From Pseudobutyrivibrio ruminis CF1b (GTDB taxonomy: Bacteria > Bacillota > Clostridia > Lachnospirales > Lachnospiraceae), in assembly GCF_000424005.1 (NCBI RefSeq), contig NZ_AUJB01000005.1, positions 1 through 64,000 on the forward strand: a stretch of DNA of 64,000 nt, read 5' to 3'. Within the stretch, counting starts at the first letter, position 1; each line of letters starts with the position of its first letter. The notes beneath the pieces were generated by a model. The model was not told where the DNA came from and did not search any database. It saw nothing but the letters and a program-made list of their open reading frames with translations. The position numbers and the translations under genes were made by a program. Below, in pieces: positions 23,732 through 50,065 of this stretch.

Positions 23732-24772
23732 ATGAAGAAAAAACAGTTAATAGTTATTCCAGCTTATCAGCCTCTCGAGAGCCTTGTGCCTCTCACAGAG
23801 GAGATACTTACACTTTTTGAAAACGTGTTGGTAGTAGATGACGGCGGAAAAGAAAAGTACGCACCTATCTTTAACAAGCTTAAGGAGATGGGAGCGATTG
23901 TTGTTACACACGCAGTAAATCAGGGAAAGGGAAGAGCCTTAAAATCAGCTATCAATTATGGCCTGATGAATCCTGAGCTTGTAAAGGCAGGTCTCATCAC
24001 TGTAGATGCAGATGGACAGCACCGTCCAGAGGATATTGTAAAGGTGGCAGACTGCATGGAGCAGCACCCAGATGATGTGGTATTAGGCTGCAGAAAGTTT
24101 GATACAGGAAACGTGCCTTGGAGAAGCCGCATGGGAAATGGCATCTCACGTAAGGTATATAAGTGGGCATGTGGTATCAATGTAAGCGATACCCAGACAG
24201 GTCTTCGCGGACTTCCATTTAGCTTCCTTGAAATCGCAGCAAAATGCGAAGGTGAAAAATACGAGTACGAGACAAACATGTTCCTTGATATGAAGTCTAA
24301 CAACGTAGGCTGCCAGGAAGTGACTATCCAGACTGTATACGAGAACAACAACGAGTCTTCACACTTCAATCCAGTAAAAGACTCTATTCGTATATACAGT
24401 ATTATTATCAAGTATTCATTCTCATCGCTGTTTTCAGCCTTGATTGATTACATAGTATTTATCATTGCTCATTCATGTGGCGCCAAGATTATGGTGGCTA
24501 CATACATCGCCAGAGCATGCTCATGCCTTGTAAACTTCTCTCTCAATAAGAAGATGGTATTCCAGGGTGAGGGTAACACAGCGGTCCAGCTGGCTAAGTA
24601 TCTGGTGCTGGTAGTTATCTCAGGAACTATTTCCGGATGGGCTGTTACAAATCTCTCAGCACTGCTTCCTATGGTTGCACCAGTAATCATCAAGGTACCA
24701 GTGGAGGTTATTCTTTACCTCTTCAACTACACAGTGCAGAGAACTATTATCTTTAAATCTAAGGAGCAGTAA
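23732..24772 (+). CDS. GT2 glycosyltransferase fused to a GtrA-like membrane domain
   Basis: The in-frame ATG at 23732 (MKKKQLIVIPAYQP) follows ATGGAG and is preferred to 23705, which overlaps the previous gene. Of 346 residues, about 1-215 are a GtrB/DPM-like GT2 domain: VVDDGGKEKYA, NQGKGRALKSAINYG, TVDADGQHRPEDI (DxD-type) and VSDTQTGLRGL. Residues about 220-346 are a four-segment GtrA-like domain (IIIKYSFSSLFSALIDYIVF, ARACSCLVNFSLNKKMVF, FNYTVQRTIIF), the PF04138-type flippase of polyprenyl-phosphate sugars. The fusion couples synthesis and flipping of the lipid-phosphate sugar for a GT-C enzyme. This arrangement is known but less common than separate genes. Confidence 0.85.
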   Translation: MKKKQLIVIPAYQPLESLVPLTEEILTLFENVLVVDDGGKEKYAPIFNKLKEMGAIVVTHAVNQGKGRALKSAINYGLMNPELVKAGLITVDADGQHRPEDIVKVADCMEQHPDDVVLGCRKFDTGNVPWRSRMGNGISRKVYKWACGINVSDTQTGLRGLPFSFLEIAAKCEGEKYEYETNMFLDMKSNNVGCQEVTIQTVYENNNESSHFNPVKDSIRIYSIIIKYSFSSLFSALIDYIVFIIAHSCGAKIMVATYIARACSCLVNFSLNKKMVFQGEGNTAVQLAKYLVLVVISGTISGWAVTNLSALLPMVAPVIIKVPVEVILYLFNYTVQRTIIFKSKEQ

Positions 24773-26667: not shown

Positions 26668-27330
26668 ATGAAAACAACAATTTTCATGCCTATAAAGCTC
26701 AATAACGAGCGCACACCTGGAAAGAACTTAAAGAAATTTGATGATGGCACAGCCCTTCTCCAGGTACCTCTTATGACAGCTCTTGAAGCAAAAAAGGATG
26801 GCGATGTAGACAGAATCGTGGTATTCTGTAGCAATCCTGACATTCAGGAGTACCTTCCAGAGGGAGTAGAATTCGTACAGAGACCTGAGAGACTTGACAC
26901 TCAGGCTATCCGCTGCGGAGATATCATCGAGGCATTCTTAGAGCAGGAGGAGTCGGATCTTTACGTTATGTATCATGCCACATCTCCTTTCATCACAAAG
27001 AAGACCCTTACAGACTGTATCAATGCAGTAAAGAGCGGAAAGTACGATTCAGCATTTGCAGCAAAGAAGCTTCAGAACTTTATGTGGTTCGATGGAAAGC
27101 CTCTGAACTTTGCACTTGACTGTGCACCACGTACACAGGATATGAAGCCATATTATTGCGAGCTTTCATCTCCATACGTATTCACAAGAGAGGTGTTCGA
27201 AAAGTATCACGGACGTACAGGCGAGAATCCATTTATCTGTGAGTGTTCCGAGATAGAGGCTATCGATATCGATTACCCAGAGGATTTTGAGCTGGCAAAC
27301 GCAGTATACATGTCACTTATTAAGAAATAA
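26668..27330 (+). CDS. Cytidylyltransferase of the CMP-sialate/CMP-KDO synthetase type
   Basis: A 220-residue soluble protein beginning FMPIKLNNERTPGKNLKKF (about 5-23), a variant of the PARGGSKxxPGKNI nucleotide loop. VEFVQRPERLDTQ, YVMYHATSPFITKKTL and AIDIDYPEDFELA follow; the last is the usual IDxPxDFxxA end motif. It should couple a 2-keto-3-deoxy acid to CMP. A separate NeuA homologue exists at 7574 with a better-conserved loop, so this one probably activates a different acid: the product of the aldolase gene that follows 11 nt later. The substrate is inferred. Confidence 0.78.
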   Translation: MKTTIFMPIKLNNERTPGKNLKKFDDGTALLQVPLMTALEAKKDGDVDRIVVFCSNPDIQEYLPEGVEFVQRPERLDTQAIRCGDIIEAFLEQEESDLYVMYHATSPFITKKTLTDCINAVKSGKYDSAFAAKKLQNFMWFDGKPLNFALDCAPRTQDMKPYYCELSSPYVFTREVFEKYHGRTGENPFICECSEIEAIDIDYPEDFELANAVYMSLIKK

Positions 27331-27341
27331 CGAGGATTTAT

Positions 27342-28913
27342 ATGGGATCAGTCAGATTACTGGATTGCACTCTGAGAGACGGTGGTCATATCAATCAGGG
27401 CGCTTTTGGTAAAAACGTAATAAAGGCCACAATCGAAAATCTGGTTAAGGCCAAAATAGATATAATAGAAGCAGGATTCTTATGGGATTCTGAGACAGGC
27501 GACGATGTGGCGCGCTACCACACCATCAGCGAGCTTAAAAAGTATCTTCCAAAGGATATGGGCTCATCAAAGATTTCTCTGATGGCTGACAATGTGGATT
27601 TGTCACATTTGGAGCCAAATGATGGCACAGTAGAATTTATCCGCCTTTCATTTAGAAAGACAGAGTTCGACTGGGCTGAGAAGCAGCTGGCTATTTTAAA
27701 GGAAAAGGATTACAAGGTATACATCAACCCAATCCACGGCAGCTCATTTACAGATCAGGAATATTTAGAGATTATCGACAGGGTCAACAGAATGGAACCT
27801 TATGGATTTTCCATCGTTGATACTTTCGGCGCCATGCGCCAGTCAGATTTAGGAAGAATCTACTACCTGATTGAGCACAACTTAGATAAAAACATTGTAC
27901 TGGGAGTTCATCTTCACGAGAATTTAGGTCTTGCATATTCTCTTGCACAGTACATTTTAAATATCGTCTCTCCAGTGAGAGACGTGACAATCGACGGTTC
28001 ACTTTTCGGTATGGGAAAGGTTCCTGGAAACCTTTGCATCGAGCAGTTCATGGATTACATGAACCACGAGTACGATACATCCTATGCCATCGAGCCAGTT
28101 TACGATGCTATCGACGAATTTATCATGCCTATATATGAGAAGACAAAGTGGGGATATTCCATCCCTTACGCTCTTTCTGCCCAGTGCAGTGTGCACCGTA
28201 CTTACGCAGAATACCTTACAGATAAGGAACGTCTTCGAACAAAGGATATCAGCCGTCTCTTAAAGGAAATCGAGCCTGAGAAATCAGAGATTTTCGACGA
28301 GGCTTATATCGAGGGAATCTACCAGAAATACATGGATTCCAATTTCGATGACGAGACAGATCTGAAGGCTGTTGTGGCTGAGATTAACAAGTTTGATAAG
28401 ATTGTAGTAATTGCTCCAGGTAGCAGCCTGAAGACTCTTACACTTAGCGATGAGCTGAAGAAGGACGCATGTCTCATCTCCGTAAACTTCATGTATGACG
28501 GAGCAGATATGAACTATCACTTCTTCTCAAATGCAAAGCGCTATCACTATGACGCAGATGTAGATATGTCCAAGATGATTATCACATCAAACCTTATGGA
28601 GGATGTGGAGAATCCAGGATATGTGGTATCAAGAAATGAGCTTGTTTACCATGATGATATCTTCTGCGATGATTCCACACTGATGCTTTTAAATCTCCTT
28701 AGACTTTGCGAGAACAAGAAGATTTACATCGCAGGTTTTGATGGCTTCAAGAGAAACGAGGACAATTTCTACGAGACAAGTCTTGAGAGAAAGGTTCGCC
28801 CTGATGACTATGATCAGGAGCTTAGAACTGAGATTATAAAGAACAGCTACTCTAAGCTTAATGTGGAGTTCCTTACTCCATCCGTATATGCGAAGTCATT
28901 TAAGAGGAAATAA
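27342..28913 (+). CDS. HMGL-like pyruvate aldolase with C-terminal CST/DUF115-like domain
   Basis: A 523-residue, two-part protein. Residues 1-290 are an HMGL/4-hydroxy-2-oxovalerate aldolase type barrel: LDCTLRDGGHINQG (about 7-20), with Arg12, Asp13 and His16 spaced as in DmpG-type catalytic residues, and GVHLHENLG (188-196) with the metal-binding His190/His192. The GSLFGMGKVPGN loop (219-230) follows. Residues about 350-523 hold KIVVIAPGSSLKTLTLSDE and KKIYIAGFDGF, a Rossmann-like pattern which resembles the start and the L/IYLxGxDF strand of CST-type sialyltransferases and DUF115 proteins. The aldolase half would join pyruvate and an aldehyde sugar into a 2-keto-3-deoxy acid. The C-terminal role is a guess. 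Confidence 0.7.
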   Translation: MGSVRLLDCTLRDGGHINQGAFGKNVIKATIENLVKAKIDIIEAGFLWDSETGDDVARYHTISELKKYLPKDMGSSKISLMADNVDLSHLEPNDGTVEFIRLSFRKTEFDWAEKQLAILKEKDYKVYINPIHGSSFTDQEYLEIIDRVNRMEPYGFSIVDTFGAMRQSDLGRIYYLIEHNLDKNIVLGVHLHENLGLAYSLAQYILNIVSPVRDVTIDGSLFGMGKVPGNLCIEQFMDYMNHEYDTSYAIEPVYDAIDEFIMPIYEKTKWGYSIPYALSAQCSVHRTYAEYLTDKERLRTKDISRLLKEIEPEKSEIFDEAYIEGIYQKYMDSNFDDETDLKAVVAEINKFDKIVVIAPGSSLKTLTLSDELKKDACLISVNFMYDGADMNYHFFSNAKRYHYDADVDMSKMIITSNLMEDVENPGYVVSRNELVYHDDIFCDDSTLMLLNLLRLCENKKIYIAGFDGFKRNEDNFYETSLERKVRPDDYDQELRTEIIKNSYSKLNVEFLTPSVYAKSFKRK

Positions 28914-28915
28914 TA

Positions 28916-29428
28916 ATGAGCAAGATTAGATTGATTATTATTGACGTGGACGGAACACTTACTGATGCGGGCATCTACTATGATGAGAATGGCAATGAGC
29001 TGAAGAAATTTTGCACCAAGGATGCAGCAGGTATTTTTGTGGCAAAGAAGCTCGGTGTAAAGACTATGATTCTCACAGGCAGAGAATGCGCTGCCACCAC
29101 CCGCAGAATGACAGAGTTAAAGGTGGATTACCTGTTCCAGAACGTTAAGGATAAAGCCAGCTATCTGAAGGAGTTTTTAGCAGATAATGGCATCTCAAAG
29201 GAGGAGGTAATGTACATCGGCGACGATTTAAATGACCTTCCACCTATGGCATTGGCTGGATACATCGGCTGCCCAGCAGACAGCTGTATCGAGATAAAAG
29301 AAAGAGCTAATTACGTCAGCACAGTAGCTGGCGGACACGGCGCTGTCAGAGATGTGCTGGAACACTATTTCCGAGAGACAGGTGAGTGGGAAGCAGCCAC
29401 AAAAGAGGTTTATGGAATAGGAGTTTAG
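28916..29428 (+). CDS. KdsC-like HAD phosphatase
   Basis: A 170-residue HAD-superfamily C0-type phosphatase. Motif I is IIIDVDGTLTDAGIYY (about 7-22), with Asp10 nucleophile and Asp12 acid/base. ILTGRECAATTRRM (about 52-65) gives motif II, and GDDLNDLPPM gives motif IV. The small size without a cap domain matches KdsC, KDO-8-phosphate phosphatase and NeuNAc-9-P type relatives. It begins 2 nt after the aldolase gene with its ribosome site in that gene's end, and would remove a phosphate from the aldolase product before CMP activation. The exact acid is not known. Confidence 0.85.
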   Translation: MSKIRLIIIDVDGTLTDAGIYYDENGNELKKFCTKDAAGIFVAKKLGVKTMILTGRECAATTRRMTELKVDYLFQNVKDKASYLKEFLADNGISKEEVMYIGDDLNDLPPMALAGYIGCPADSCIEIKERANYVSTVAGGHGAVRDVLEHYFRETGEWEAATKEVYGIGV

Positions 29429-29451
29429 CTTTTAAATAGAGAGGAAAGATT

Positions 29452-30345
29452 ATGATTAGTGCAGAAGAAAAAGCAAAATTCATAGAGACTCTTGACGGAA
29501 CATCCTATGTAGGTGAGCCAAGAGATAACACCTTCATGTTTATCAAAAAGCAGGTAGAACACCTTGGAGCTTTTCTTGAGGGACATAAGGATTGTCTTGT
29601 TTTTGCAGAAGATAACATAACTTTTTCAGATGAGATTTTAGCAAACAACCATGTGGTATTCTGCGAATATCCACAGTATGAATACGCGCTGTTCGCCATG
29701 GATTACAGAGATGTGCGCATGCCTCTTCCAGAGTTTTTCGAGGAGGAAGGATATTACATCACATCTGATTCTTCAGTGGGCGAGAATTGCACCATCTATC
29801 CAGGATGCTTCATTGGACCAAATGTACACATTGGTGACAATGCACTTATTCTTCCTGGTGCAAAGATTAAGCACGCTACTATTGGCGATAACTTTATCTG
29901 CAACGAGAACGTAGTAGTAGGATGTAATTCATTTACAAAGGCAAAGGATGATAAGGGAGATTTGATTTCTATGCCATCCCTTGGAAGAGTTGTCATAGGA
30001 AACAATGTAGAGCTGGGTGCCTGCGATGTTATTGAGCTTGCCACATGTGGCGAGACAGTCATCGGAGACAATGTAAAGCTTGATAACCTTGTAAGTATCG
30101 GACACGAGTCCGTTCTTCATAAAAATGTATGTATGGCTGCCCAGGCCACACTTGCTGGTTTCGTAGATGTAGGCGAGAACACATTCATCGGTGTAGGCGC
30201 CAACGTAAAGAACCGTATCAACATCGGAAAGAACGTAACAGTAGGTATGGGCTCAGTAGTAGGCCGTGCAGTAAAAGATGGGGAGACAGTTTTCGGAAAT
30301 CTCGCGAAGCCTATCCCAATCCTTAAAAAGACTTTTCAAAAATAG
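29452..30345 (+). CDS. LpxD-like ACP-dependent sugar N-acyltransferase (left-handed beta helix)
   Basis: A 297-residue protein with a head domain (about 1-105) and a hexapeptide beta helix (about 106-290). The segment GRVVIGNNVELGACDVIEL (178-196) and DNLVSIGHES (211-220) closely mirror the LpxD region that ends in the catalytic His; here that residue is His218. LpxD takes acyl groups from acyl-ACP and places them on a sugar amine. There is no lipid A pathway in a Gram-positive host, and three genes later a carrier protein is encoded, so the donor is probably the aminoacyl-carrier made by the next genes. RBS AGAGGA stands before the ATG. It could also act on a UDP-aminosugar with acetyl-CoA. 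Confidence 0.75.
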   Translation: MISAEEKAKFIETLDGTSYVGEPRDNTFMFIKKQVEHLGAFLEGHKDCLVFAEDNITFSDEILANNHVVFCEYPQYEYALFAMDYRDVRMPLPEFFEEEGYYITSDSSVGENCTIYPGCFIGPNVHIGDNALILPGAKIKHATIGDNFICNENVVVGCNSFTKAKDDKGDLISMPSLGRVVIGNNVELGACDVIELATCGETVIGDNVKLDNLVSIGHESVLHKNVCMAAQATLAGFVDVGENTFIGVGANVKNRINIGKNVTVGMGSVVGRAVKDGETVFGNLAKPIPILKKTFQK

Positions 30346-30353
30346 GTAACATT

Positions 30354-31880
30354 ATGAAAAATATTTTAGAATGGCTAGAAAATAGCACAGCAAAATATCC
30401 AAACAAAACAGTATACTCAAACCTTGAGTACAGTCTCACATTTGATGAGGTGTCATGCCTCGCTAAGTCCGTAGGCTCTGCCATCATAAACTTAGACCTC
30501 CCAGAGGGCCCAGTGGCCGTTGTCATGGGTAAGGAGCCAAAGATGATAGCCAGCTACCTTGGTGTAGCATACTCAGGAAGAATCTACGCCCCAATCGACG
30601 TTACTCTTCCTATCAAGAGACTGAATTCAATCTTTGATAACCTGGAGCCTGCAGCAGTAGTTACAAGCGAGGCTTTAAAGGAAAAGGTACAGGGTATCTT
30701 AGAGCAGGTGGGCAAGTCTGAGGTAAAGGTACTTACAGTGGAGGAGCTGGAAAAGACTCCTGCAGATCAGGCTAAGCTTGATGCAGTAAGAGAAAACATG
30801 ACAGAGCTTGATCCTCTTTACATTATCTACACATCAGGTTCCAGCGGAGTTCCAAAGGGCGTTATCGCCAGCCACAGAAATGTAATCTGCTACATCAGAG
30901 CATATGTAAAGGTAATGGGAATCACTGATGAGGATATACTTGGAAATCAGTCACCACTGGATTACATTGCAGCTATCAGAGATATTTATATTCCATTATA
31001 TACAGGTGCATCTTCATTCCTTACACCAAAGGAATTCTTCATGCAGCCTAACAAGCTTTTTGATGCTTTGAATAATGCAGGAGTAACATCTATCGGATGG
31101 ACATCATCTTCTATGACATTGCTTGATACACTTCATGCATTTAAGAACGACACACTTAAGACTGTAAATAAGGTGTGCTTCTCAGGCTCAGTTATGACAA
31201 AGCCAGTACTTGAATACTGGACAACAAACCTACCAAATGCAAAGTTTGTAAACCAGTACGGTCCTACAGAGGCAACAGCATCATGTACATATTATGTGGT
31301 GGACGAGCACACAATGGAATACGACAGTGTGCCAATCGGAAAAGCATACGACGATTACAAAATCATCCTTATCGACGAGGATGGAAAGGTACCAGAAGAG
31401 GGAGAGCTTGGAGAAATCTGTGTTACAGGTCCTACACTTGCCCTTGGCTACTACAAGAATCTAGAGAGAACCAATCAGGACTTCATCCAGAATCCTGTAA
31501 ACAACAGATACAGAGAGCTAATCTACAAGACAGGTGATGTAGGACGTATTCTTCCTGATGGAAATATCGAGTTCCACGGCCGTAAGGATCGCCAGATAAA
31601 GCACATGGGACACAGAGTAGAGCTTGATGAAATCGAGGCAGCAGCAGCTACTATAGCAGGCGTTGGAGAGAACGCTGTTATTTATGATGACAAAAACGAG
31701 GTTCTTGTGCTATATTATGTAGGCGAGGCAACTATTAAGGAGCTTTCTGCAGGTCTTCGCGGAATCATACCAGGTTTCATGGTACCACGTAAGATGATTA
31801 ATCTAGAGAGCATGCCTAAGCTGCCAAACAGCAAAATAGATTTAAAGGAACTTGAAAGGATGTATAGTAATGAAGGATAA
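30354..31880 (+). CDS. AMP-forming amino acid:carrier-protein ligase (DltA/NRPS A-domain type)
   Basis: A 508-residue ANL-superfamily enzyme with the standard core motifs in order: YIIYTSGSSGVPKGV (A3, about 160-174), YGPTEAT (A5, about 302-308), YKTGDVGR (A7), GRKDRQIKHMGHRVELDEIE (A8) and PKLPNSKIDLKEL (A10, with catalytic Lys). The A4 region reads SPLDYIAAIRDIY, keeping the Asp that holds the alpha-amino group in amino-acid-specific A domains. The product of the reaction is an aminoacyl thioester on the carrier encoded next. Length fits a free-standing DltA. Start is 8 nt after the LpxD-like gene; the end overlaps the carrier gene by 11 nt. Amino acid identity is not readable by eye. Confidence 0.85.
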   Translation: MKNILEWLENSTAKYPNKTVYSNLEYSLTFDEVSCLAKSVGSAIINLDLPEGPVAVVMGKEPKMIASYLGVAYSGRIYAPIDVTLPIKRLNSIFDNLEPAAVVTSEALKEKVQGILEQVGKSEVKVLTVEELEKTPADQAKLDAVRENMTELDPLYIIYTSGSSGVPKGVIASHRNVICYIRAYVKVMGITDEDILGNQSPLDYIAAIRDIYIPLYTGASSFLTPKEFFMQPNKLFDALNNAGVTSIGWTSSSMTLLDTLHAFKNDTLKTVNKVCFSGSVMTKPVLEYWTTNLPNAKFVNQYGPTEATASCTYYVVDEHTMEYDSVPIGKAYDDYKIILIDEDGKVPEEGELGEICVTGPTLALGYYKNLERTNQDFIQNPVNNRYRELIYKTGDVGRILPDGNIEFHGRKDRQIKHMGHRVELDEIEAAAATIAGVGENAVIYDDKNEVLVLYYVGEATIKELSAGLRGIIPGFMVPRKMINLESMPKLPNSKIDLKELERMYSNEG

Positions 31881-32097
31881 AGTTCTTGCAATTTTAGAGG
31901 GCGTTAGACCAGATATTGATTACGCCACAGAGGATAATTTAGTAGACGGCGGTGTTTTAGAGTCATTCGACATCGTTGCTATCATTTCACAGTTTGAGTC
32001 AGAGTTTGATATTGAGGTAGAGCCACAGTATCTTACAGCAGCACATTTTAATTCATTAGATGCTATGGTTTCATTAGTGGAGACATTACAGAAATAA
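31870..32097 (+). CDS. Acyl/aminoacyl carrier protein (DltC-like)
   Basis: The likely start is ATG 31870, after AAAGGA inside the ligase gene; an earlier in-frame TTG at 31852 is less likely. The 75-residue acidic protein (MKDKVLAILEGV) has the four-helix carrier pattern and the pantetheine-attachment site VLESFDIVAII, with Ser32 in place of the DSL Ser, similar to DltC. It overlaps the ligase by 11 nt and the decarboxylase by a single base (TAATG), so the three are made together in fixed ratio. It would carry the amino acid activated by the ligase. A phosphopantetheinyl transferase is not present here. Confidence 0.88.
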   Translation: MKDKVLAILEGVRPDIDYATEDNLVDGGVLESFDIVAIISQFESEFDIEVEPQYLTAAHFNSLDAMVSLVETLQK

Positions 32098-33224
32098 TGA
32101 TTAATACACCAGCATATATTTTTAACATCGATATATTGCAGCAGAGAGTGGACAGAATAAAGTCCCTCATCCCAGATATAGAGTTAACCTATTCAATAAA
32201 GGCTAACCCTTTTTTGGTGCCTTATATTATTCACATGGTTCGCCATTTGGAGGTTTGTTCTCCTGGCGAGCTTTCTATCTGTAAGGCAGCTTCTGTTCCA
32301 CCTGAAAAGATTATTTATTCAGGTCTTTTAAAGGAAGAATGGGATATCACAGAGGCAGTGGAGTACGGAGTGGATATTATCACAGCTGAGAGCCCTCGCC
32401 AGCTTCGCCTTATTGAAAAGGTGTGCGCTGAAAGAGACTGTCATGCAAAAGTGCTTCTTCGTCTCACCAGTGGCAATCAGTTTGGAATGGATCAGGACAC
32501 AGTGGTAGGTCTTCTTAAGACACTTTCAGATTACCCACATGTGGATTTTTCCGGTATTCACTATTTCTCTGGCACACAGAAGACTCGTGCTGCCAAGTTC
32601 GAAGCAGATAAGGCTAATGTACATGGCCTATTAGATGCAGCTAAGGAGATAGGTGTAGCTATTGATTTCTTAGAGTTTGGTCCTGGAGCAGGAGTGGAGT
32701 ATTTCGATGGTCCTTCTGACGATAAGGATTTTGAGAACTTCGCAGTAGCTATGGATGCCATCGCAGATTTCAAATCTACAGTGAAGCTTGGTATCGAGAT
32801 GGGACGTTTTATCGCCGGCACATGCGGCCGCTTTGAGACTACTGTTAAGGAGATTAAGCCTTCAAAGGGCGTTAATTACGTTATTATAGATGGTGGTATT
32901 CATCATCTTAATTATTTCGGACAGATTCAGGGTATGAAGATTCCTGAGATAGCTGTCAGCAATACAAGAGCAGCAAAGGATAAATACTGTATCGTAGGTA
33001 GCCTTTGCACTACAGCAGATGTTCTTGTGCGCGAGGTGGAGATGTCTTCTTTGGAAGAGGGAGATGTTCTTACCTTTAATAGATGTGGAGCTTATTCTAT
33101 TACAGAGGCACCTAATCTTTTCCTTTCACGTCGTATGCCAGCAGTGTACGCTGAGAGCAAGGATATGGGGCTCAAACTTTTAAGAGAAGGAATGGAGTCA
33201 TATCGATTTAATAATGAATACTAA
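32097..33224 (+). CDS. Type III PLP-dependent amino acid decarboxylase (alanine-racemase-like fold)
   Basis: A 375-residue enzyme. YSIKANP (about 32-38) gives the PLP lysine, Lys35 or nearby, in the usual YxxKAN pattern. SGLLKEEWDI, IHYFSGTQ, LEFGPGAGVEYF and EMGRFIAGTCG (the phosphate-binding EPGR region, here EMGR) follow. The GSLCTTADVL segment (about 301-310) is the C-x-x-x-D motif of the partner active site. This is the ornithine/DAP decarboxylase group that includes BtrK, which acts on Glu-ACP. Its one-base overlap with the carrier gene suggests that the carrier-bound or the free amino acid is decarboxylated. A standard DAP/ornithine decarboxylase role is possible but less likely in this place. 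Confidence 0.82.
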   Translation: MINTPAYIFNIDILQQRVDRIKSLIPDIELTYSIKANPFLVPYIIHMVRHLEVCSPGELSICKAASVPPEKIIYSGLLKEEWDITEAVEYGVDIITAESPRQLRLIEKVCAERDCHAKVLLRLTSGNQFGMDQDTVVGLLKTLSDYPHVDFSGIHYFSGTQKTRAAKFEADKANVHGLLDAAKEIGVAIDFLEFGPGAGVEYFDGPSDDKDFENFAVAMDAIADFKSTVKLGIEMGRFIAGTCGRFETTVKEIKPSKGVNYVIIDGGIHHLNYFGQIQGMKIPEIAVSNTRAAKDKYCIVGSLCTTADVLVREVEMSSLEEGDVLTFNRCGAYSITEAPNLFLSRRMPAVYAESKDMGLKLLREGMESYRFNNEY

Positions 33225-35466
33225 ATTTAAGGACTTCTTAAAAAAGGATTACGTAAAATCCGGAATAATTTGTTTTACAATAGCTTTTCTCTCTTTCATC
33301 TACTTCGTAGTGAAGGGAGAGGGCTTTTTTGTGTTAACAAATGATTTTAACGACCAGCAGATACCTTTCACTATCGGTTTGCACAATGCACTTTTGGATA
33401 GTGGCATCACAGGTTTCAGCTGGGATATCGATCTTGGAACATCCACAATGGATGGCTTTAGCTTTTATGAGCTGGGCAGTCCATTTTTCTGGATTAGCAT
33501 GCTGTTTCCAGCAAATGCTTTCCCTTATATAGTGGCATGGCTTTTCATGCTTAAGTTTTCTTTTGCAGGCGTCTTCTCATGCCTGTATCTGAGACGATTT
33601 GTAAATGACAGCAAATGGGCAGTGATGGGCTCAGTGCTTTATGCATTCTCAGGCTATTCACTTGTGAATCTGCTGTTCTATCATTTCCATGATGCTATCT
33701 GTTTCTTCCCACTTTTACTTATCGGGTTGGAGAGATACAAGGAAAAGAAGGATTATAAATTCTTCATATTTACGATATTTTTAAATTGCTTTATCAACTA
33801 TTTCTTCTTTGTAGGAGAGGTGGTTTTCCTAGTGATATATTATCTTTGTCGCTTTGTCAGCAAGGATATCAAGACCATGGTCTTGGATGCAGTGAAGTGT
33901 GTAGTCTGCGGAATACTGGGTGTGGGAATGGCTGCCTTTGTGTTCATTCCAAACATCATCTTTATTTCAGGTAACCCACGTACAGGTGAGTTCTCAGGAA
34001 TTATCAGCATGCTTACTACAGATGTGCAAAACTACCTGTACATCCTAAAGGCACTTCTGATTCCAGGAGAGACACTTACAGAGATAAGTGCTGTGAAATC
34101 ACAGAGCTTCGCCAGCCATGGCTTTTATCTTCCTATGGTGGGCCTGGGATTAGTGCTTGCCTACATCATTAGCAGAAAGAAGGATTGGCTTTCAAAGATC
34201 CTTATCTACTGTCTGGTGGCCAGCTTTATTCCACTACTCAGTGATTTGTTCTACATGTACAGTGCAGCTCAGATGCGCTGGTGGTACATGCTTACACTGA
34301 TGGCTGCTCTTGCTACAGTAAAAATGTTTGAGGAGCCAGATGTGAAGGCTATAGGAGCAGGCTCGGTAATATACCTGGCGCTTATTGTGGTGCTGGCTGT
34401 GGCAGCAAACCATTTGGATATGATTTACAATCCAAAGAGATTTTATATCCTGGTGGCTGTGGCTATTTTTGGCGCAGTGCTCACATATTTGTATGCAGCA
34501 CTTTTAAAGGATGGATACAGAGTGGTATTTACATCTCTCATCGTGTTCTCAGTGGTGCTTATGACAGCCACTATTCATATCTATCGCACATGCGCATGGA
34601 TGGATTATAAGGATTATAAGATGCGCTTTGAGGCGGCTGTGCAGACAGAGCTTCCTAGCAGTCAGTACAGATTAAATGACACCATGAATCTTACAAGCAT
34701 GGTGGCTCATGTGGCAGGCTTTTCAAATCAGTCTTCCACAGATACAAACAGCATCCGCGATTTCGAGGATCTGTTTGATTACTATGCTCAGGTAACAGCT
34801 ATTCCAAAGAACGACATTCCAGGGCTGGCAGAGCTTTTGGCAGGAAAGTATTTCTATGCTTTCGATCCGAGTGTAGGAGTGCTTATAAAGGAGCTTCCTA
34901 CCAGCTATAAGACCATGTACCTTATGGAAAGAGGTGCATGTCCTATCGGCTTTGCAGCAGATTCATATATCACAGAGGATGAGCTTAGAAAGCTGGATGT
35001 GACACAGAGAGCTATAGCACTTCTTGATAGTGTGGTAGTGGATAAGGCTGGTACTACAGATGAGCTTTACACTCAGGTGACATCAGACCTTCCAGAGAAA
35101 AAGGCAGAGGACATCGATTTCGAGACCAGTGTATCTGACTATGTGGTGGAGCACACCTACGGCTCAGTATTAGGATTTGAAAAAGACGGCCATGGCATGA
35201 AATGTGTCACAGCCTACGATAAGGATACATACGTATATTTCAGCGTTCCATACGACACAGGCTGGACTGCCACAGTGGACGGAGAGAAGACTGATATCAT
35301 AGTGTCTGGTGGCATGATGCTCATCAAAGTACCAGCAGGAAACCACAATGTAGAATTCAGCTATATCACCCCAGGATTAAAGCTTGGAACCCTAGTGTCT
35401 GTGCTGTGCTGGATGCTATTCCTTGTTTTTACATTTGCTCTAAGAAATGATAAAATTTATACTTAA
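33214..35466 (+). CDS. YfhO-family membrane protein, probable GT-C glycosyltransferase
   Basis: A 750-residue protein with about a dozen hydrophobic segments and a soluble C-terminal part (about 480-730). FFVLTNDFNDQQIPF (about 38-52) holds the acidic D-F-N-D-Q-Q loop typical of YfhO, and GFSFYELGSPFFW follows. The C-terminal end has FSVPYDTGWTATVDGEKTD, usual in YfhO, with a final membrane segment. YfhO relatives decorate wall or membrane glycans with polyprenyl-phosphate sugars in Gram-positives. The start overlaps the decarboxylase by 11 nt and has no strong ribosome site of its own, so it depends on coupling. The donor sugar is unknown. Confidence 0.82.
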   Translation: MNTKFKDFLKKDYVKSGIICFTIAFLSFIYFVVKGEGFFVLTNDFNDQQIPFTIGLHNALLDSGITGFSWDIDLGTSTMDGFSFYELGSPFFWISMLFPANAFPYIVAWLFMLKFSFAGVFSCLYLRRFVNDSKWAVMGSVLYAFSGYSLVNLLFYHFHDAICFFPLLLIGLERYKEKKDYKFFIFTIFLNCFINYFFFVGEVVFLVIYYLCRFVSKDIKTMVLDAVKCVVCGILGVGMAAFVFIPNIIFISGNPRTGEFSGIISMLTTDVQNYLYILKALLIPGETLTEISAVKSQSFASHGFYLPMVGLGLVLAYIISRKKDWLSKILIYCLVASFIPLLSDLFYMYSAAQMRWWYMLTLMAALATVKMFEEPDVKAIGAGSVIYLALIVVLAVAANHLDMIYNPKRFYILVAVAIFGAVLTYLYAALLKDGYRVVFTSLIVFSVVLMTATIHIYRTCAWMDYKDYKMRFEAAVQTELPSSQYRLNDTMNLTSMVAHVAGFSNQSSTDTNSIRDFEDLFDYYAQVTAIPKNDIPGLAELLAGKYFYAFDPSVGVLIKELPTSYKTMYLMERGACPIGFAADSYITEDELRKLDVTQRAIALLDSVVVDKAGTTDELYTQVTSDLPEKKAEDIDFETSVSDYVVEHTYGSVLGFEKDGHGMKCVTAYDKDTYVYFSVPYDTGWTATVDGEKTDIIVSGGMMLIKVPAGNHNVEFSYITPGLKLGTLVSVLCWMLFLVFTFALRNDKIYT

Positions 35467-35487
35467 TAGAAGTGGATGAGGTGTCAA

Positions 35488-36168
35488 ATGTTAATCCCAG
35501 ATTTATTTGATATGACACAGGAAGAAAACATCTTCTGTGCAAAAAGAATATTGGTTGATTCTATATACAAACAGGCAAATCTTGAAGGTATAGGTGTTAC
35601 ATTTGCAGAGACACAGGATATCTTAAATGATGTGAATGTGGAATCTGTAAAACCTAAGGATGTAAGTAAGGTGTGCTGTCTTAGAGATGGTTGGCATTAT
35701 CTATTGGATAATCTTAATAAAGATTTGAATCTTATATTTTTGGAAGATATCCACAACCTAATAGCCAGATTTGATGTAGACTACAGATATCTTGGAAAGA
35801 TTAGAGAAGATGAAGTGATGATTTCTGGTACAAGTTGGAGACCAGAGATTCCTTCAAATGAAGATATTGATAAGCTTTGTGAAATGCTCAAGGTAGATAC
35901 TTCAAAAAACATTACAGATCAAGCAATTAACATTGGTCTATATATAATGCGAATGCAACCATTTAAGGATGGTAATAAGCGGGTTGGTAGCTATGCTATG
36001 AACAAGATTCTTATCGAACATGGCAAAGGTATTTTTAATGTCCCTGTAGAGCTTGATGGTAAATTCAAGCAGAAGCTTGTGGAATACTATGAATCAGATG
36101 ATAATTCTGATTTAAAGATGTTTGTAGCTGAGCATTGCCTAGATGGAATACATAGAATTAAAGAATAG
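35488..36168 (+). CDS. Fic-domain protein with the catalytic His replaced by Gln
   Basis: ATG 35488 has GAGG before it; ATG 35476 is the longer choice. The 226-residue product has a class II-type inhibitory segment (ANLEGIGVTFAETQ, Glu33) and a flap YLGKIREDEVMISG (101-114). The core helix is MQPFKDGNKRVGSY (156-169). In Fic proteins the motif reads HPFx[DE]GNxR; here Gln157 stands where His should be, while Phe159, Asp161, Gly162, Asn163 and Arg165 remain. AMPylation by the usual route would be impaired. AT-rich codons mark it off from the genes before it. No antitoxin or phage gene is beside it. CTCTCC/GGAGAG arms (36185-36199) form a small hairpin after it. Confidence 0.75.
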   Translation: MLIPDLFDMTQEENIFCAKRILVDSIYKQANLEGIGVTFAETQDILNDVNVESVKPKDVSKVCCLRDGWHYLLDNLNKDLNLIFLEDIHNLIARFDVDYRYLGKIREDEVMISGTSWRPEIPSNEDIDKLCEMLKVDTSKNITDQAINIGLYIMRMQPFKDGNKRVGSYAMNKILIEHGKGIFNVPVELDGKFKQKLVEYYESDDNSDLKMFVAEHCLDGIHRIKE

Positions 36169-36212
36169 CCTATGAAAAGGAAGCCTCTCCTACGGAGAGC
36201 CTTTGATTACAA

Positions 36213-37301
36213 ATGACATCAAAAATTGTTTCAAACAATAAACTGATTTGTTACTCAAATAAATATTTTATATTCAGTAAAGGCCCTAAGTTGATTATAT
36301 CTACTGACTTAAACTGTAAAGAATATAAAATAGCTTATATTCCAGTAGGTTCATTAAAGCAAAAATTGGGCTCAATAAGACTGTTTGCCCGAGCTCTTCG
36401 CCTGGAACCCCGCTGCGGCATCTTCGTAGATGACACCACAGCACTAATCACCTACCATGGTGCTATATACAGAGTGGACTGCACAAATGGCCAGATAGAA
36501 TTGGAGCATAGCTTCAGGGCTGAAATGAACAACCCACTCAGCCTTGTGAAAATACAAGGTATCAGCGGATTTGAAGATGGTATTTATTACGGCGAGTACT
36601 TTTTGAATCATGAAGGTACAGCTGTAAATATTTATAAAAGGGATAATAATGCTTCTTGGAATGTAGTCTATACATTTTCGGCAGGCAGCATATACCATAT
36701 TCATGGATTAGTCCCATGTAAAGAAAAAGACTGTGTCTATATCCTAACTGGCGATAAAGACGCGGAATCAGGCATATATGAGGCCAGAAATGGCTTTCAG
36801 GATGTGAAGGTAATAGTAAGTGGTAAGCAGGCTTATAGAGCTTGTATAGCCCTTCCTACAGAAGGAGGCATGCTATATACCACAGACACGCCACTTGAAA
36901 GCAACTATCTGTATTACCTAGACTTTGAGTCTAAAGAAATTCAGACTATAGCAGAAATATCAGGACCATCCATTTATGGAAAGGTTATATCGGATAGCGA
37001 GATGGTATTTTCCACATCAGTGGAACCTGATAGTAAGCTCCCTAGATGGAGATATGAGTTTACACATAAGCCAGGACCTGGAATAAAGGATAGAAAATCC
37101 AGAGTATATTATGTGAAGAATGAAGATGGCAAATTCACTTGTGAAGAAATATTTGCAGCCACAAAAGATATTCTTCCTATGGGTGTGGGACAGTTTGGAA
37201 CCATTATGTTCCCAGCAGGTGAAGGAGACCTTTACATCACAGGTCAGGCACTACGTAAATACGATAACAAGACACTTCTGATAAAGAAGGAGAATAAATA
37301 A
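36213..37301 (+). CDS. Conserved-looking protein of unknown function, possible beta-propeller
   Basis: A 362-residue soluble protein with no signal peptide and no clear family signature. Strand-rich text with repeated aromatic and Gly-Asp turns (DGIYYGEYFLNHEG, CVYILTGDKDAESGIYEA, MLYTTDTPLESNYLYYLD, GDLYITGQALRKYD) is what a beta-propeller or six-bladed sugar-binding protein looks like. The ribosome site is poor: GAGAG lies 17 nt before the ATG. The first 50 codons are AT-rich, while the rest uses GC-ending codons such as CGC, CTG and GGC. This suggests a join within the gene. It ends right before an AAC(3)-like acyltransferase, and the two could act on the same glycan. Confidence 0.45.
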   Translation: MTSKIVSNNKLICYSNKYFIFSKGPKLIISTDLNCKEYKIAYIPVGSLKQKLGSIRLFARALRLEPRCGIFVDDTTALITYHGAIYRVDCTNGQIELEHSFRAEMNNPLSLVKIQGISGFEDGIYYGEYFLNHEGTAVNIYKRDNNASWNVVYTFSAGSIYHIHGLVPCKEKDCVYILTGDKDAESGIYEARNGFQDVKVIVSGKQAYRACIALPTEGGMLYTTDTPLESNYLYYLDFESKEIQTIAEISGPSIYGKVISDSEMVFSTSVEPDSKLPRWRYEFTHKPGPGIKDRKSRVYYVKNEDGKFTCEEIFAATKDILPMGVGQFGTIMFPAGEGDLYITGQALRKYDNKTLLIKKENK

Positions 37302-38237
37302 ATGAAACTTTCGCTTTTAGAGCGTTATGGATTTATTGAGGTTGGAGCAAGAGTATTCCTTGGTAAGTTCCCAGAACTGAAAAAGATGGCTAAGAGAATG
37401 AGAGCCAGCAAGGCCCATTCTGGCAGTGACCAGCCAGCCGAAATAGATCCAATTCTGAAGGTACAGTACTTTCAAAAGCTAGATGCCTTTATAAAGCAGG
37501 ATGACATAGTACTTATCCATTCATCAATGGATGGTCTGAAGACTATAGGCATCACTGCGGAGGAATTTATAGATTTCATGAAGAAACAGGTGGCAGAAAA
37601 GGGTGTCACATTTGTGCTCCCATGCTTTCCTACTACAAACCTGACACCACCTACAGAAAAGAGCAGACCATACGATCCAAAGAAGACTATCTGCTGGACA
37701 GGAATGCTCCCAAATAAGTTTTTATGTGAGGATGGAGTCATCCGCACCAGATTTCCATATAATTCACTGGCAGCCATGGGGCCAAAGGCTGACGAAATGA
37801 TGGCTCATGATATGGAGGCTACCTCAGTCTATGATAAGACCAGTGCATGGCGCTACTGCTATGATAACCATGCCAAGCTGCTTTTCGCAGGCGTAAAGGC
37901 CAGCAGCAGTAACACAATGGGCTCTCATATGGCTCCAGATTTAATGGGTGATGAATGGCCTGTAAAGGATTGGTACCAGGATGTGACCTATAAGGTTCGT
38001 ATAGACGGAGAGGTATCAGAAAAGGTAGTAAGAGTCCAGAAGGATATGTGGGCTCAGTATTGTATGGAGGAGCGCACTTCCGGATACCTGAAGGAAGCAG
38101 ATGTGCTTTCAGAGGAATATATCGGCGACTGCAATCTTGGATTGGTAGAGGATTGCAAGGAGATGATGGATGTCCTTATTAAGCTTTCTAAAAAGGGAAA
38201 GCTGGTATATATGATTCCTAGAAGATACAGGAAATAA
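37302..38237 (+). CDS. AAC(3)-like aminosugar N-acetyltransferase
   Basis: A 311-residue protein with the AAC(3) antibiotic-acetyltransferase fold. VLIHSSMDGLKTIG (about 67-80) is the first signature, PCFPTTNLTPPTE and a TRFPYNSLAAMGPKADEM segment (about 147-164) follow, and KLLFAGVKASSSNTMGSH (about 185-202) covers the catalytic His-like region. RBS AAGGAG sits before the ATG. AAC(3) homologues with sugar-nucleotide substrates occur in glycan loci, so acylation of an amino sugar is more likely here than antibiotic resistance. The donor (acetyl-CoA or the carrier protein) cannot be told. Confidence 0.72.
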   Translation: MKLSLLERYGFIEVGARVFLGKFPELKKMAKRMRASKAHSGSDQPAEIDPILKVQYFQKLDAFIKQDDIVLIHSSMDGLKTIGITAEEFIDFMKKQVAEKGVTFVLPCFPTTNLTPPTEKSRPYDPKKTICWTGMLPNKFLCEDGVIRTRFPYNSLAAMGPKADEMMAHDMEATSVYDKTSAWRYCYDNHAKLLFAGVKASSSNTMGSHMAPDLMGDEWPVKDWYQDVTYKVRIDGEVSEKVVRVQKDMWAQYCMEERTSGYLKEADVLSEEYIGDCNLGLVEDCKEMMDVLIKLSKKGKLVYMIPRRYRK

Positions 38238-42571: not shown

Positions 42572-43354
42572 ATGAAAGTAGTAATTTTAGCAGGAGGATA
42601 TGGAACTCGTATATCCGAGGAATCTCAATTTAAACCTAAGCCAATGATTGAAATTGGGGAAAAACCTATACTTTGGCATATTATGAAAGAGTATTCATAT
42701 TATGGATATAATGAGTTTATAATTTGCGCAGGTTATAAACAGCACATAATAAAAGAATGGTTTGCCGACTATTTTATTCATAATAGTGATATTACATTTG
42801 ATTATACAAATGGTACGTCTGATATGATTGTTCATGAGTCACATATGGAACCATGGAAGGTTACGGTAGTGGACACTGGTCTTAATACTATGACCGGTGG
42901 TCGTATCAAACGTATTCAAAAATATGTAGGAAATGAACTATTCCTTATGACTTATGGCGATGGTGTCTGTGATGTAGATATTAAGAAATTGGTGGAGTTT
43001 CATAAGGAACATGGTAAGCTTGCCACGCTTACTGCAGTGCTTCAGGATCAGTCAAAGGGTGTTTTAGATATAGGTGGTGATAACGCTGTAAAGTCATTCC
43101 GTGAGAAGAAGTTATCTGATGGCGCACCAATAAACGCAGGATATATGGTTTTAAATCCAGAAGTGTTTAATTACATTGAAGGTGATCAGACTGTGTTTGA
43201 GAAAGAACCTTTAGAGAAACTTGCAAATGAAGGTCAGCTTATGAGCTATATGCATAGAGGTTTTTGGCAGTGTATGGATAACATTCGAGAAAAACAACAG
43301 TTGGAAAAACTTCTTGCAGCAGGCAAAGCACCATGGAAGAAATGGGAAGATTAG
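42572..43354 (+). CDS. rfbF: Glucose-1-phosphate cytidylyltransferase
   Basis: A 260-residue nucleotidyltransferase: MKVVILAGGYGTRISEES (1-18), then KPKPMIEIGEKPILWHIM, YGYNEFIICAGYKQ and MTYGDGVCDVDIKKLVEFH with the Mg site. FWQCMDNIREKQQLEKL near the end is the usual RfbF tail. It makes CDP-glucose from glucose-1-phosphate and CTP, the first step to CDP-3,6-dideoxy sugars. Length matches RfbF/DdhA. The 4,6-dehydratase RfbG/DdhB that uses CDP-glucose is not next to it or elsewhere in the window. GAGG and GGT lie before the ATG. Confidence 0.93.
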   Translation: MKVVILAGGYGTRISEESQFKPKPMIEIGEKPILWHIMKEYSYYGYNEFIICAGYKQHIIKEWFADYFIHNSDITFDYTNGTSDMIVHESHMEPWKVTVVDTGLNTMTGGRIKRIQKYVGNELFLMTYGDGVCDVDIKKLVEFHKEHGKLATLTAVLQDQSKGVLDIGGDNAVKSFREKKLSDGAPINAGYMVLNPEVFNYIEGDQTVFEKEPLEKLANEGQLMSYMHRGFWQCMDNIREKQQLEKLLAAGKAPWKKWED

Positions 43355-43380
43355 TAATTAGTTAGAAACGAGGAATAAAA

Positions 43381-44739: not shown

Positions 44740-44757
44740 ATCAATAGGGATGTAAAA

Positions 44758-46464: not shown

Positions 46465-47358
46465 ATGCGAGTGGTTGTAACTGGTGCCACAAGTATGTTA
46501 GGCGTGGCACTGATTAAAGAATGCATTGAAAATAAGAATACAGTACTTGCTATAGTACGAGAAGGAAGTAGTCGTTTAGCAAGACTTCCTGAGTCTGAAT
46601 ACCTACAGGTTGAATATGCGGATTTGGATGGTCTTGATTCTTTTCAGGGTGATGGAACACCTTATGATGTGTTTTACCATTTCGCATGGGGACACACTAA
46701 TAAGGCTGAAAGAGATTATCCACTTGCGCAGGAGGATAATATTCGCACTACATTAAAGGCTGTAGAGCTGGCAAACAAATTAGGCTGTAAGAGATTTGTG
46801 GGGGCTGGTTCTCAGGCAGAATATGGTGGATGTGAAGGTATTATTTCAGAAGAGACGGTTCCACATCCAGTCACATCATATGGGATTGCAAAATATTCTG
46901 CAAATATGCTTAGTAAAAGAATGTGTGAACAGCTTGGAATAAAGCATATCTGGGCAAGAATATTCAGTGTATATGGTTGCTATGATAATGAGGGCACCAT
47001 GATTAATTATGGTATTGACAAGTTCCTTAAAGGAGAAGAGGCAAACTTCTCAGCAGGACTTCAGACATGGAATTATTTATTTGAGTCTGATGCGGGAAGA
47101 ATGTTCTATTTACTGGGAAGTAAAGATATTGATGCTGGTATATATCATGTGGCAGGGAATGAATCCAAGCCATTACGACAGTTTATTGAAAGTATCAGCA
47201 ATCAATTCGTAAATGCGAAGTGTAATTTTGCTGAGCCAGGAGATACAGTAGTATACGGAATAGAGCCAGATACAAAAAAGAGCTATTCAAATCTGGGGTT
47301 CACTCCGGCAGTATCCTTCGAAGAAGGAATTAAGAAAGTAATTGAGTTTAGAAGATAA
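46465..47358 (+). CDS. Extended-SDR reductase/epimerase, probable YerF-like partner
   Basis: A 297-residue extended SDR starting at once after the ThDP gene (no gap). The cofactor site is a variant VTGATSMLGVAL (about 4-15), the active site is SYGIAKYSANML (YxxxK, about 139-150), and GAGSQAEYGG (about 113-122) carries the Ser. A C4-ketoreductase or YerF-like role that reduces the branched ketosugar fits its place. It lacks the 4,6-dehydratase DE pattern and so does not fill the rfbG step. The ribosome site is GAGG in the end of the ThDP gene. Confidence 0.7.
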   Translation: MRVVVTGATSMLGVALIKECIENKNTVLAIVREGSSRLARLPESEYLQVEYADLDGLDSFQGDGTPYDVFYHFAWGHTNKAERDYPLAQEDNIRTTLKAVELANKLGCKRFVGAGSQAEYGGCEGIISEETVPHPVTSYGIAKYSANMLSKRMCEQLGIKHIWARIFSVYGCYDNEGTMINYGIDKFLKGEEANFSAGLQTWNYLFESDAGRMFYLLGSKDIDAGIYHVAGNESKPLRQFIESISNQFVNAKCNFAEPGDTVVYGIEPDTKKSYSNLGFTPAVSFEEGIKKVIEFRR

Positions 47359-50057: not shown

Positions 50058-50065
50058 GGTTCCTC

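Follow-up and report, generated by a model that had tools for sequence, protein, structure and literature searches.

An adenylation-carrier-decarboxylase trio joined to an LpxD-like acyltransferase in a Pseudobutyrivibrio polysaccharide locus may place omega-aminoacyl groups on an amino sugar

Several natural-product pathways contain a trio of stand-alone adenylation enzyme, carrier protein and pyridoxal phosphate (PLP) decarboxylase, and we here describe a related trio that is joined, in a polysaccharide locus of Pseudobutyrivibrio ruminis CF1b, to an acyltransferase resembling LpxD. The DNA analysed, referred to as the window, comprises positions 1 to 64,000 of contig NZ_AUJB01000005.1, with the four genes at 29452..33224 on the forward strand. 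For vicenistatin (VinN/VinL/VinO) and fluvirucin B2 (FlvN), side-chain-activated (3-methyl)aspartate is reported to be loaded on a stand-alone carrier, and in vicenistatin biosynthesis the PLP enzyme decarboxylates the carrier-bound substrate (PMC11284099), the product feeding polyketide synthesis. AfcQ/AfcK/AfcP are reported to form a beta-alanyl thioester from L-Asp in vitro (PMC12186527), and the same trio chemistry is proposed, together with a gene deletion, for BolO/BolC/BolN (PMC7756342). The latter two systems, of AFC-BC11 and the bolagladins, belong to Burkholderia lipopeptide pathways, and the available portions of these reports name no LpxD-like transferase and no glycan (PMC12186527, PMC7756342). 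The trio chemistry itself is not new, being known from natural-product pathways, and an earlier, sequence-only reading of the window has to be corrected here: it knew of no described pathway so composed in a Gram-positive capsule locus, yet the trio is established or proposed for vicenistatin, fluvirucin, bolagladin and AFC-BC11.

Further likenesses are found in butirosin biosynthesis (BtrI/BtrJ/BtrK), where the acceptor is an aminoglycoside and loading falls to BtrJ, a ligase of the ATP-grasp type, and in the exosortase-A ligase and decarboxylase pair (TIGR03098/TIGR03099), which occurs near polysaccharide genes in a Gram-negative setting. The adenylation enzyme and carrier of the window are related to DltA and DltC of the DltABCD system, but the pocket is different and the adjacent transferase of the unit is a soluble LpxD-like enzyme; to our knowledge, the Dlt system has no decarboxylase. 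With LpxD the window enzyme has beta-helix repeats and an aligned catalytic histidine in common, the expected chemistry involving a carrier-bound acyl donor and an amino-sugar acceptor; it nevertheless scores under the LpxD cutoffs and sits in a Gram-positive polysaccharide locus. We found no description in the open-licence literature of surface glycans made with the trio, whether by itself or in combination with an LpxD-like transferase, an absence of little weight. As far as this literature tells, use of the trio in surface-glycan loci, widely with an MBOAT protein and here with an LpxD-like enzyme, is new.

We propose, at a probability of roughly 0.54, that an omega-amino-acyl group is built by the unit on a carrier of its own and then attached to an amino sugar for a surface polysaccharide. 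The adenylation enzyme would activate a side-chain carboxyl (Glu gamma or Asp beta, with Glu slightly preferred) and load it on Ser32 of the holo-carrier, after which the BtrK-like decarboxylase would remove the free alpha-carboxyl on the carrier to give a 4-aminobutyryl (GABA) or beta-alanyl thioester. The LpxD-like enzyme would then, via His218, use this group to acylate the amine of an amino sugar in nucleotide-activated form, and a GT2-GtrA/YfhO pair would probably move the sugar out. Gene identities, conserved linkage and active-site residues in this scheme are computed, whereas we infer the substrate, the order of steps, the acceptor and the transfer and export steps. The interpretation offered by the sequence-only reading, which was of the same kind, is supported in part, the chemistry it put forward being backed by active-site and linkage evidence.

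All four genes are intact, and their coordinates and frames were verified exactly. Family scans and alignments identify an LpxD-like left-handed beta-helix acyltransferase of 297 amino acids (29452..30345, + strand; catalytic His218; proposed sugar N-acyltransferase), separated by an 8-base gap from the gene of a stand-alone adenylation enzyme of the ANL/DltA-like type (508 amino acids; 30354..31880, +), for which a pocket alignment and a structure model were also at hand. The DltC-like phosphopantetheine carrier (75 amino acids, Ser32 in GGVLES; 31870..32097, +) begins at an ATG at 31870 and overlaps the adenylation gene by 11 bases; its Ser is conserved in 75/75 aligned homologues. The gene of the BtrK-like fold-type III PLP decarboxylase (375 amino acids; 32097..33224, +) shares its first base with the end of the stop codon of the carrier gene, a 1-base overlap, and itself overlaps the following gene by 11 bases. 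That gene encodes a YfhO-family membrane protein by Pfam-type scan (33214..35466, +). The coordinates and family scans bear out the earlier description of four touching or overlapping genes of these families, and the overlaps of 11 and 1 bases that it gave for the last three are exact. His218, which it had placed in DNLVSIGH, is present and invariant (10/10 rows of the alignment). The adenylation enzyme does contain the core motifs ascribed to it, with the reservation that the equivalent of GrsA D235 is Ile rather than Asp.

Every curated NCBIfam naming cutoff is missed by the unit proteins. The LpxD-like protein reaches 163.8 bits to NF002060 (cutoff 207) and 155.3 against 242.5 for a second LpxD model; the adenylation enzyme scores 282.9 bits against 476 and 271.6 against 559.85 for DltA, and the carrier 33 bits to the DltC model (cutoff 68). 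The best NCBIfam match of the decarboxylase is the exosortase-A decarboxylase TIGR03099 (192 bits, cutoff 478), followed by LysA (177.6 bits, cutoff 297.9). The four are therefore best regarded as relatives, not members, of the LpxD, DltA, DltC, LysA and exosortase-A decarboxylase families.

The strongest single argument for a carrier-bound substrate is the active site of the decarboxylase. Its PDB matches are headed by LysA (2.7e-31), with BtrK second (1.5e-30) and the closest solved enzyme of on-carrier chemistry among these matches. BtrK is reported to convert a glutamyl carrier to a GABA carrier (PMC7857480), and VinO, AfcP and BtrK are all reported to be active on carrier-bound substrate (PMC11284099, PMC12186527, PMC7857480). 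We aligned the window enzyme with 36 further trio decarboxylases, excluding open reading frames of 340 amino acids or less. Cys-Thr occupies the substrate loop in 36 of the 37, the remaining one being cut by a contig end, and all 37 show DGG-x-(H/N), like BtrK (LCTPED and DGGMHH), in place of the RP motif of the diaminopimelate (DAP) type. The DAP decarboxylases 2p3e and 3n2b have CETGD and CETSD, with NDLIRP, and the genome's own LysA, on a separate contig (C10), retains SLCENCD and RP. The window enzyme, with CTTAD and no RP, falls outside LysA by motif as well as by score, and shows the BtrK/VinO-type pattern of PLP lysine, Cys-Thr loop and DGG-x-H. The acid at the Cys-Glu site of DAP decarboxylases recognises the far end of DAP; to judge from the alignment it is missing in the trio decarboxylases, as in BtrK. 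Of the earlier claim that an amino acid is loaded and then decarboxylated, free or bound, the on-carrier form is supported by this BtrK-like active site and by a pocket unlike that of DltA, and the free-form route becomes a rival, weighed below.

Amino-acid adenylation and DltA models outscore acyl-CoA ligases on the adenylation enzyme, which reaches 305.4 bits to the amino-acid adenylation model TIGR01733 (cutoff 317.4). The nearest solved folds to its AlphaFold model (pLDDT 89.4 overall) are adenylation domains of non-ribosomal peptide synthetases and DltA, with HitB and DltA among the 50 matches listed by alignment; VinN is not among these, to which no meaning attaches. In GrsA numbering, the pocket reads I235, A236, R239, G278, C299, S301, Q322, A330 and S331: in a HMMER alignment to LgrA, LDYIAAIRD falls gap-free on the D235 segment, so that Ile replaces the Asp that binds the amino group in GrsA. 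A built-in control is provided by two related loci, L110 and L111, where a second adenylation-carrier pair carries the DltA-type segment PFSFDLSVMD; the canonical DltA pocket with D235 (FSFDLSVMD) is absent from the window enzyme. VinN is reported to bind the amino group through D230, the D235 equivalent, with S299 at the 301 position (PMC11253843), and to use Arg331 (PMC7756342, PMC11253843). The window enzyme has Ile, Ser and Ser at these three places, with only S301 in common, and an Arg at 239, which sets it apart from the VinN type, although a VinN-like mode of action is still proposed. Because D235 is lost, the carboxyl that is activated would have no amino group next to it, and R239 may hold a carboxylate further away; Glu activated at its gamma-carboxyl, or a comparable acidic amino acid activated at the omega position, would fit this. 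Prediction of the substrate from the pocket, a check suggested earlier, hence points to a side-chain-activated acidic amino acid as a class, the specific substrate being a matter of inference.

Related adenylation enzymes were compared at the same positions, leaving out open reading frames of 440 amino acids or less here and in the adenylation tree; L182, with a stop codon in its stretch, was excluded from alignment A3. Group I (n=8) consists of the window and seven loci retrieved via protein similarity and not by motif, with L073, a copy of the window, not counted, and has D233, I235, A236, R239, S301, Q322, A330 and S331 in 8/8. Group II, with 34 rows representing 30 distinct genes (L049, L054, L063 and L085 are second fetches), has D233, D235, V236, K239, S301 and N331, and a decarboxylase is linked to 28 of these genes. 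Group III (n=12) has Y233, D235, K239 and G301, and a decarboxylase is linked in none within the stretches covered. Since group III carries K239 without a decarboxylase, K239 alone is not diagnostic.

An alignment of seven adenylation enzymes, scanned against one genome from each of 84,980 species, yielded 215 relatives, and the counts that follow refer to the best 80 of these; genes were counted by tblastn at 1e-3 anywhere in the locus, LpxD-like genes at E < 1e-20. An LpxD-like gene is present in six of the 80 loci and lies directly before the adenylation gene in 6/6. These are five Pseudobutyrivibrio-type genomes, one labelled Butyrivibrio fibrisolvens 16/4 (L108), and one Christensenella metagenome-assembled genome (MAG; L127). 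The former are 79-93% (adenylation) and 91-98% (LpxD-like) identical to the window, the latter about 51% and 36%. The four-gene set, for which a search in Lachnospiraceae genomes had been advised, is complete in L108, L110, L111 and L127, while L109 and L112 stop inside the adenylation gene. Since the genes stay together in other species, their linkage is more than chance.

The borders of the unit can be read from the same loci. Directly upstream of the lpxD-like gene we find a 624-residue membrane protein gene alone (L108), a GT2 gene (L110, L111), a GT2 gene and a 517-residue protein (L112), or a 567-residue protein without Pfam match (L109). Downstream, the YfhO, Antibiotic_NAT and GT4 genes are kept in L108, L110 and L111, and that of a 362-residue protein in L108 and L110; YfhO follows the decarboxylase in the first three, and a GT2 gene takes its place in L127. 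As the upstream genes vary and YfhO is kept in Pseudobutyrivibrio but not in L127, the unit is most simply delimited as lpxD-A-CP-dec (adenylation, carrier and decarboxylase genes), plus YfhO in Pseudobutyrivibrio. We also considered the genes immediately upstream in the window (26668-29428): a CMP-sugar-type cytidylyltransferase, a 523-residue HMGL-like aldolase and a KdsC/KDN-9-P-phosphatase-like gene, which look like a ulosonic-acid route with the aldolase replacing a NeuB/KdsA synthase. They were rejected as part of the unit, being absent directly upstream of the lpxD-like gene in L108-L112; an aldolase homologue of 31% identity is found about 7 kb upstream in L110 and L111. Across the family the aldolase is present in 58 of 250 genomes, our own among them, most of which lack the LpxD unit, and a cytidylyltransferase or phosphatase homologue stands beside it in 13/20 fetched loci, own included.

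The trio alone is widespread in Clostridia, as a Dlt-like system with a built-in decarboxylase. Carrier and decarboxylase homologues occur in 76 and 74 of the 80 loci, and an MBOAT homologue in 67, of which 66 lie within 2.5 kb of the adenylation gene and all within 3.3 kb; seven loci, several of them on short contigs, have neither MBOAT nor LpxD-like gene. Decarboxylases similar to that of the window (E <= 1e-40) are found in 85/397 family genomes, own included, and in a further locus set the decarboxylase adjoins the adenylation gene in 12/29 loci other than our own. Two gene orders recur, A-CP-dec in group I, the window included, and A-dec-CP in group II. The neighbours are often an MBOAT protein (Pfam agreed for both that were tested) together with one of SGNH/DltD-like type (a label without Pfam match in the three tested), an arrangement seen in L033, L082, L083, L084, L086 and 67 of L108-L187, from Lachnospiraceae and Ruminococcus-type bacteria; the product of the MBOAT type is presumably an ester. 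In the adenylation tree, built by a quick method and with some long branches, the six LpxD-linked rows fall within a supported 27-row clade together with 19 MBOAT-linked and two other rows. Neighbour labels in this tree were set at 1e-10, giving nine rows labelled 'none' against seven at tblastn 1e-3, and the L014 row labelled as group III is another pocket type. Because the LpxD-linked rows nest among MBOAT-linked ones, the window version looks like a Dlt-like system with an exchanged transferase, and one or two origins of the LpxD linkage are possible.

As to the LpxD-like enzyme itself, His218 aligns with the catalytic His of E. coli LpxD ('QIAH'), and the PDB match to LpxD spans residues 103-294 only. 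A fold search of the PDB with its model, which is poor, gave no match at E <= 0.001, with LpxD entries at the top of the list. In the tree of the family the trio-linked rows form one group, at a support of only 64/60. The enzyme occurs in 5/397 family genomes at E <= 1e-30 (own included), and we examined seven trio-less relatives, four from this family search and three other phylum matches with E < 1e-60. Five of the seven touch an amine-forming gene, namely a DegT aminotransferase (L078, L080) or a PIG-L de-N-acetylase (L081, L225, L226); L079 touches neither. At the L227/L256 locus the neighbours are two ketosynthase-III-like proteins, an SDR protein, a 72-residue carrier, a FabD-like protein and a phosphopantetheinyl transferase, along with sugar dehydrogenase, oxidoreductase and aminotransferase genes; the L256 labels were assigned by eye except for the Pfam-tested phosphopantetheinyl transferase and UDP-sugar dehydrogenase. 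This stretch (L256, 4220-14633), which combines a small fatty-acid set of its own with UDP-amino-sugar genes, has the look of a system for sugar N-acylation from a dedicated carrier. With relatives adjoining aminotransferases or de-N-acetylases, and one its own carrier, this group is most naturally read as N-acylating amino sugars, one member doing so from a carrier encoded in its locus. In nine annotated phylum loci of about 3.8 kb each (L225-L232, L244), no adenylation homologue adjoins the LpxD match, so that the LpxD-adenylation pairing is rare; the remaining phylum matches, which for the most part span residues 107-293, seem to be genuine LpxD from Firmicutes with an outer membrane. Transfer to a sugar amine, as put forward in the sequence-only reading, is in sum plausible from the placement of the LpxD-like gene and the neighbours of its relatives, with a distant MBOAT as a possible competitor.

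A potential acceptor is encoded on the same contig (C14), past the window end and about 34 kb downstream of the decarboxylase, by an FdtA/QdtA ketoisomerase (67672-68097; 1.2e-43 to 2pa7) and a QdtB aminotransferase (68102-69196; 2.9e-151 to 3frk), enzymes for dTDP-3-amino-3,6-dideoxyhexose. A count of hexapeptide motifs over window and contig end gave only two beta-helix candidates, the LpxD-like enzyme and a 186-residue protein at 17674, so a QdtC/FdtC-type N-acyltransferase is not evident. In Butyrivibrio fibrisolvens 16/4, too, FdtA and QdtB genes follow the unit, at a distance of about 20 kb. Because four of the seven unit genomes, three of them MAGs, are without FdtA, this sugar is a candidate only, if the best local one. 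For export, a GT2-GtrA fusion upstream of the unit (23732..24772, +; start taken as the first ATG) is proposed from its context as a lipid-linked sugar synthase/flippase partner of YfhO, for which the context likewise suggests extracellular transfer of the finished sugar. GT2-GtrA is 83-92% identical in L108, L110 and L111, where it and YfhO flank the unit, and this arrangement suggests a lipid-linked side-branch sugar moved by a three-component glycosylation system.

The group might instead go elsewhere, either to a hydroxyl through the MBOAT of the window (50066-51475, - strand; 31% to a trio-linked MBOAT, 5e-51) or through the Antibiotic_NAT protein (37302-38237), leaving the LpxD-like enzyme to add an acetyl or other acyl group. 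We hold this to be unlikely, though it deserves to be kept in view: an MBOAT accompanies most group-I loci, as counted above, and the window has one with an ALGX-type SGNH partner next to it (48861-50057, -), 17 kb downstream on the other strand, while L108, L110 and L111 all retain the Antibiotic_NAT gene, which in two of these loci stands after a DltA-DltC-like pair. Set against this, the LpxD-like gene touches the adenylation gene in all six loci, L127 included, and no Antibiotic_NAT homologue was found in the 16.7 kb of L127. Nor is there an MBOAT homologue in the fetched stretches of the six LpxD loci or L222; homologues of the window MBOAT were not found in those of L108-L112, L127, L222 and L223, and within these it does not appear to travel with the unit. 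A Dlt-type MBOAT/DltD-like partner beside the trio was likewise not found among the ten window proteins scanned (26668-38237) or in the stretches of the six LpxD-type loci. The ALGX-type partner presumably points to plain O-acetylation. The order of steps could also be reversed: GABA or beta-alanine would be released in free form by the PLP enzyme, and this omega-amino acid would then be loaded by the adenylation enzyme. Genes and end product would be identical, and the loss of D235 fits a substrate without alpha-amino group, yet R239 would face an ammonium group, the decarboxylase has the BtrK active-site pattern, and VinN and AfcQ are reported not to accept the decarboxylated amino acid (PMC11284099, PMC12186527); such an order is thus rather improbable.

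Two further explanations concern the adenylation enzyme. That it forms an ordinary D-alanine DltA/DltC pair beside an unrelated lysine or polyamine decarboxylase is very improbable given its DltA score, its pocket unlike DltA, the decarboxylase that accompanies it in 74/80 loci and the separate LysA on contig C10. Even less credence is due to the idea that it loads a fatty acid or hydroxy acid which the LpxD-like enzyme then transfers, in the way that LpxD uses 3-hydroxyacyl-ACP: the resemblance to LpxD speaks for it, as does the L256 locus, where a small set of fatty-acid synthesis genes accompanies an LpxD-like enzyme, but the amino-acid adenylation and DltA models beat the acyl-CoA ligases, and the PLP decarboxylase would be left without a role.

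Several observations weigh against the proposed transfer of a carrier-made omega-aminoacyl group to an amino sugar. Residues 1-100 of the LpxD-like protein, where the N-terminal uridine-binding domain of LpxD would be expected, have no Pfam match and gave weak results in a fold search, its structure model is poor (mean pLDDT 70.3, pTM 0.52), and two weaker LpxD matches with tested neighbours (L228, L244) have no amine-forming enzyme. The long loop of DAP enzymes and BtrK is missing from all 37 trio decarboxylases, making the likeness to BtrK incomplete, and one group-I locus (L006) has no decarboxylase within its 4.6 kb. R239 was read from a sequence alignment, and since the model has a pLDDT of about 60 in that block, the pocket reading rests on sequence; the invariance of the pocket residues in 80/80 loci is biased, the motif being one of the two search patterns of the scan. 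VinN Arg331 is Ser here, and D235 is reported to be lost also in some alpha-amino acid and hydroxy acid enzymes (PMC11253843). FdtA is found in 3/7 LpxD-unit genomes (own, L108, L127) against 27/150 family genomes, lies on a separate contig in the L127 genome, and in L108 is, with QdtB, 42% and 49% identical to its counterparts on the window's contig, far below the unit genes. Finally, the MBOAT of the window, distant and on the opposite strand as it is, could be the real transferase.

The surrounding locus offers further observations. The MBOAT and ALGX-type SGNH pair (48861-51475) probably serves polysaccharide O-acetylation and has a 151-residue MBOAT-like fragment beside it (48354-48809), recognised by eye and without Pfam match. 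In L110 (16197-18921) and L111 (15149-17864), a DltA-DltC-like pair directly precedes the Antibiotic_NAT gene, the counterpart of which in the window was given above, and that acyltransferase may for this reason take D-alanyl from a carrier. At 42572-47358 lie an NTP transferase, a DegT protein in which His-His replaces the customary Lys and which we take to be RfbH-like, a TPP enzyme and an NAD epimerase, a set presumably resembling a CDP-branched-sugar (yersiniose-type) route; the Christensenella MAG with the LpxD unit (G402) has homologues of the NTP transferase (70%), DegT protein (76%) and TPP enzyme (32%). A nonulosonic-acid route, presumably legionaminic-like, is found at the contig start (1689-2729 and 6523-8278), with a CBS-NTP transferase, NeuB and a second CMP-sugar cytidylyltransferase. 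A Fic-domain protein (35476-36168) is 92% identical in L108 and was not found in the fetched L110 and L111 stretches, and 9428-10981 encodes a membrane protein with a C-terminal metallo-beta-lactamase-like domain (weak Pfam match).

More broadly, we consider it possible, at odds just short of even, that gut and rumen Clostridia have a widespread class of 'decarboxylative Dlt' systems in which a carrier is charged with an acidic amino acid, the latter is decarboxylated while bound, and surface polymers are decorated with the resulting GABA or beta-alanyl groups, usually as MBOAT-made esters, and that in Pseudobutyrivibrio the trio has been re-coupled to an LpxD-like enzyme to make an N-(omega-aminoacyl) sugar before export. 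If so, chemistry known from antibiotics and lipopeptides would also be a common route of Clostridia to positively charged omega-amino groups at the surface, which would affect the charge of the surface, the adsorption of phages and, GABA being a signalling molecule, host sensing.

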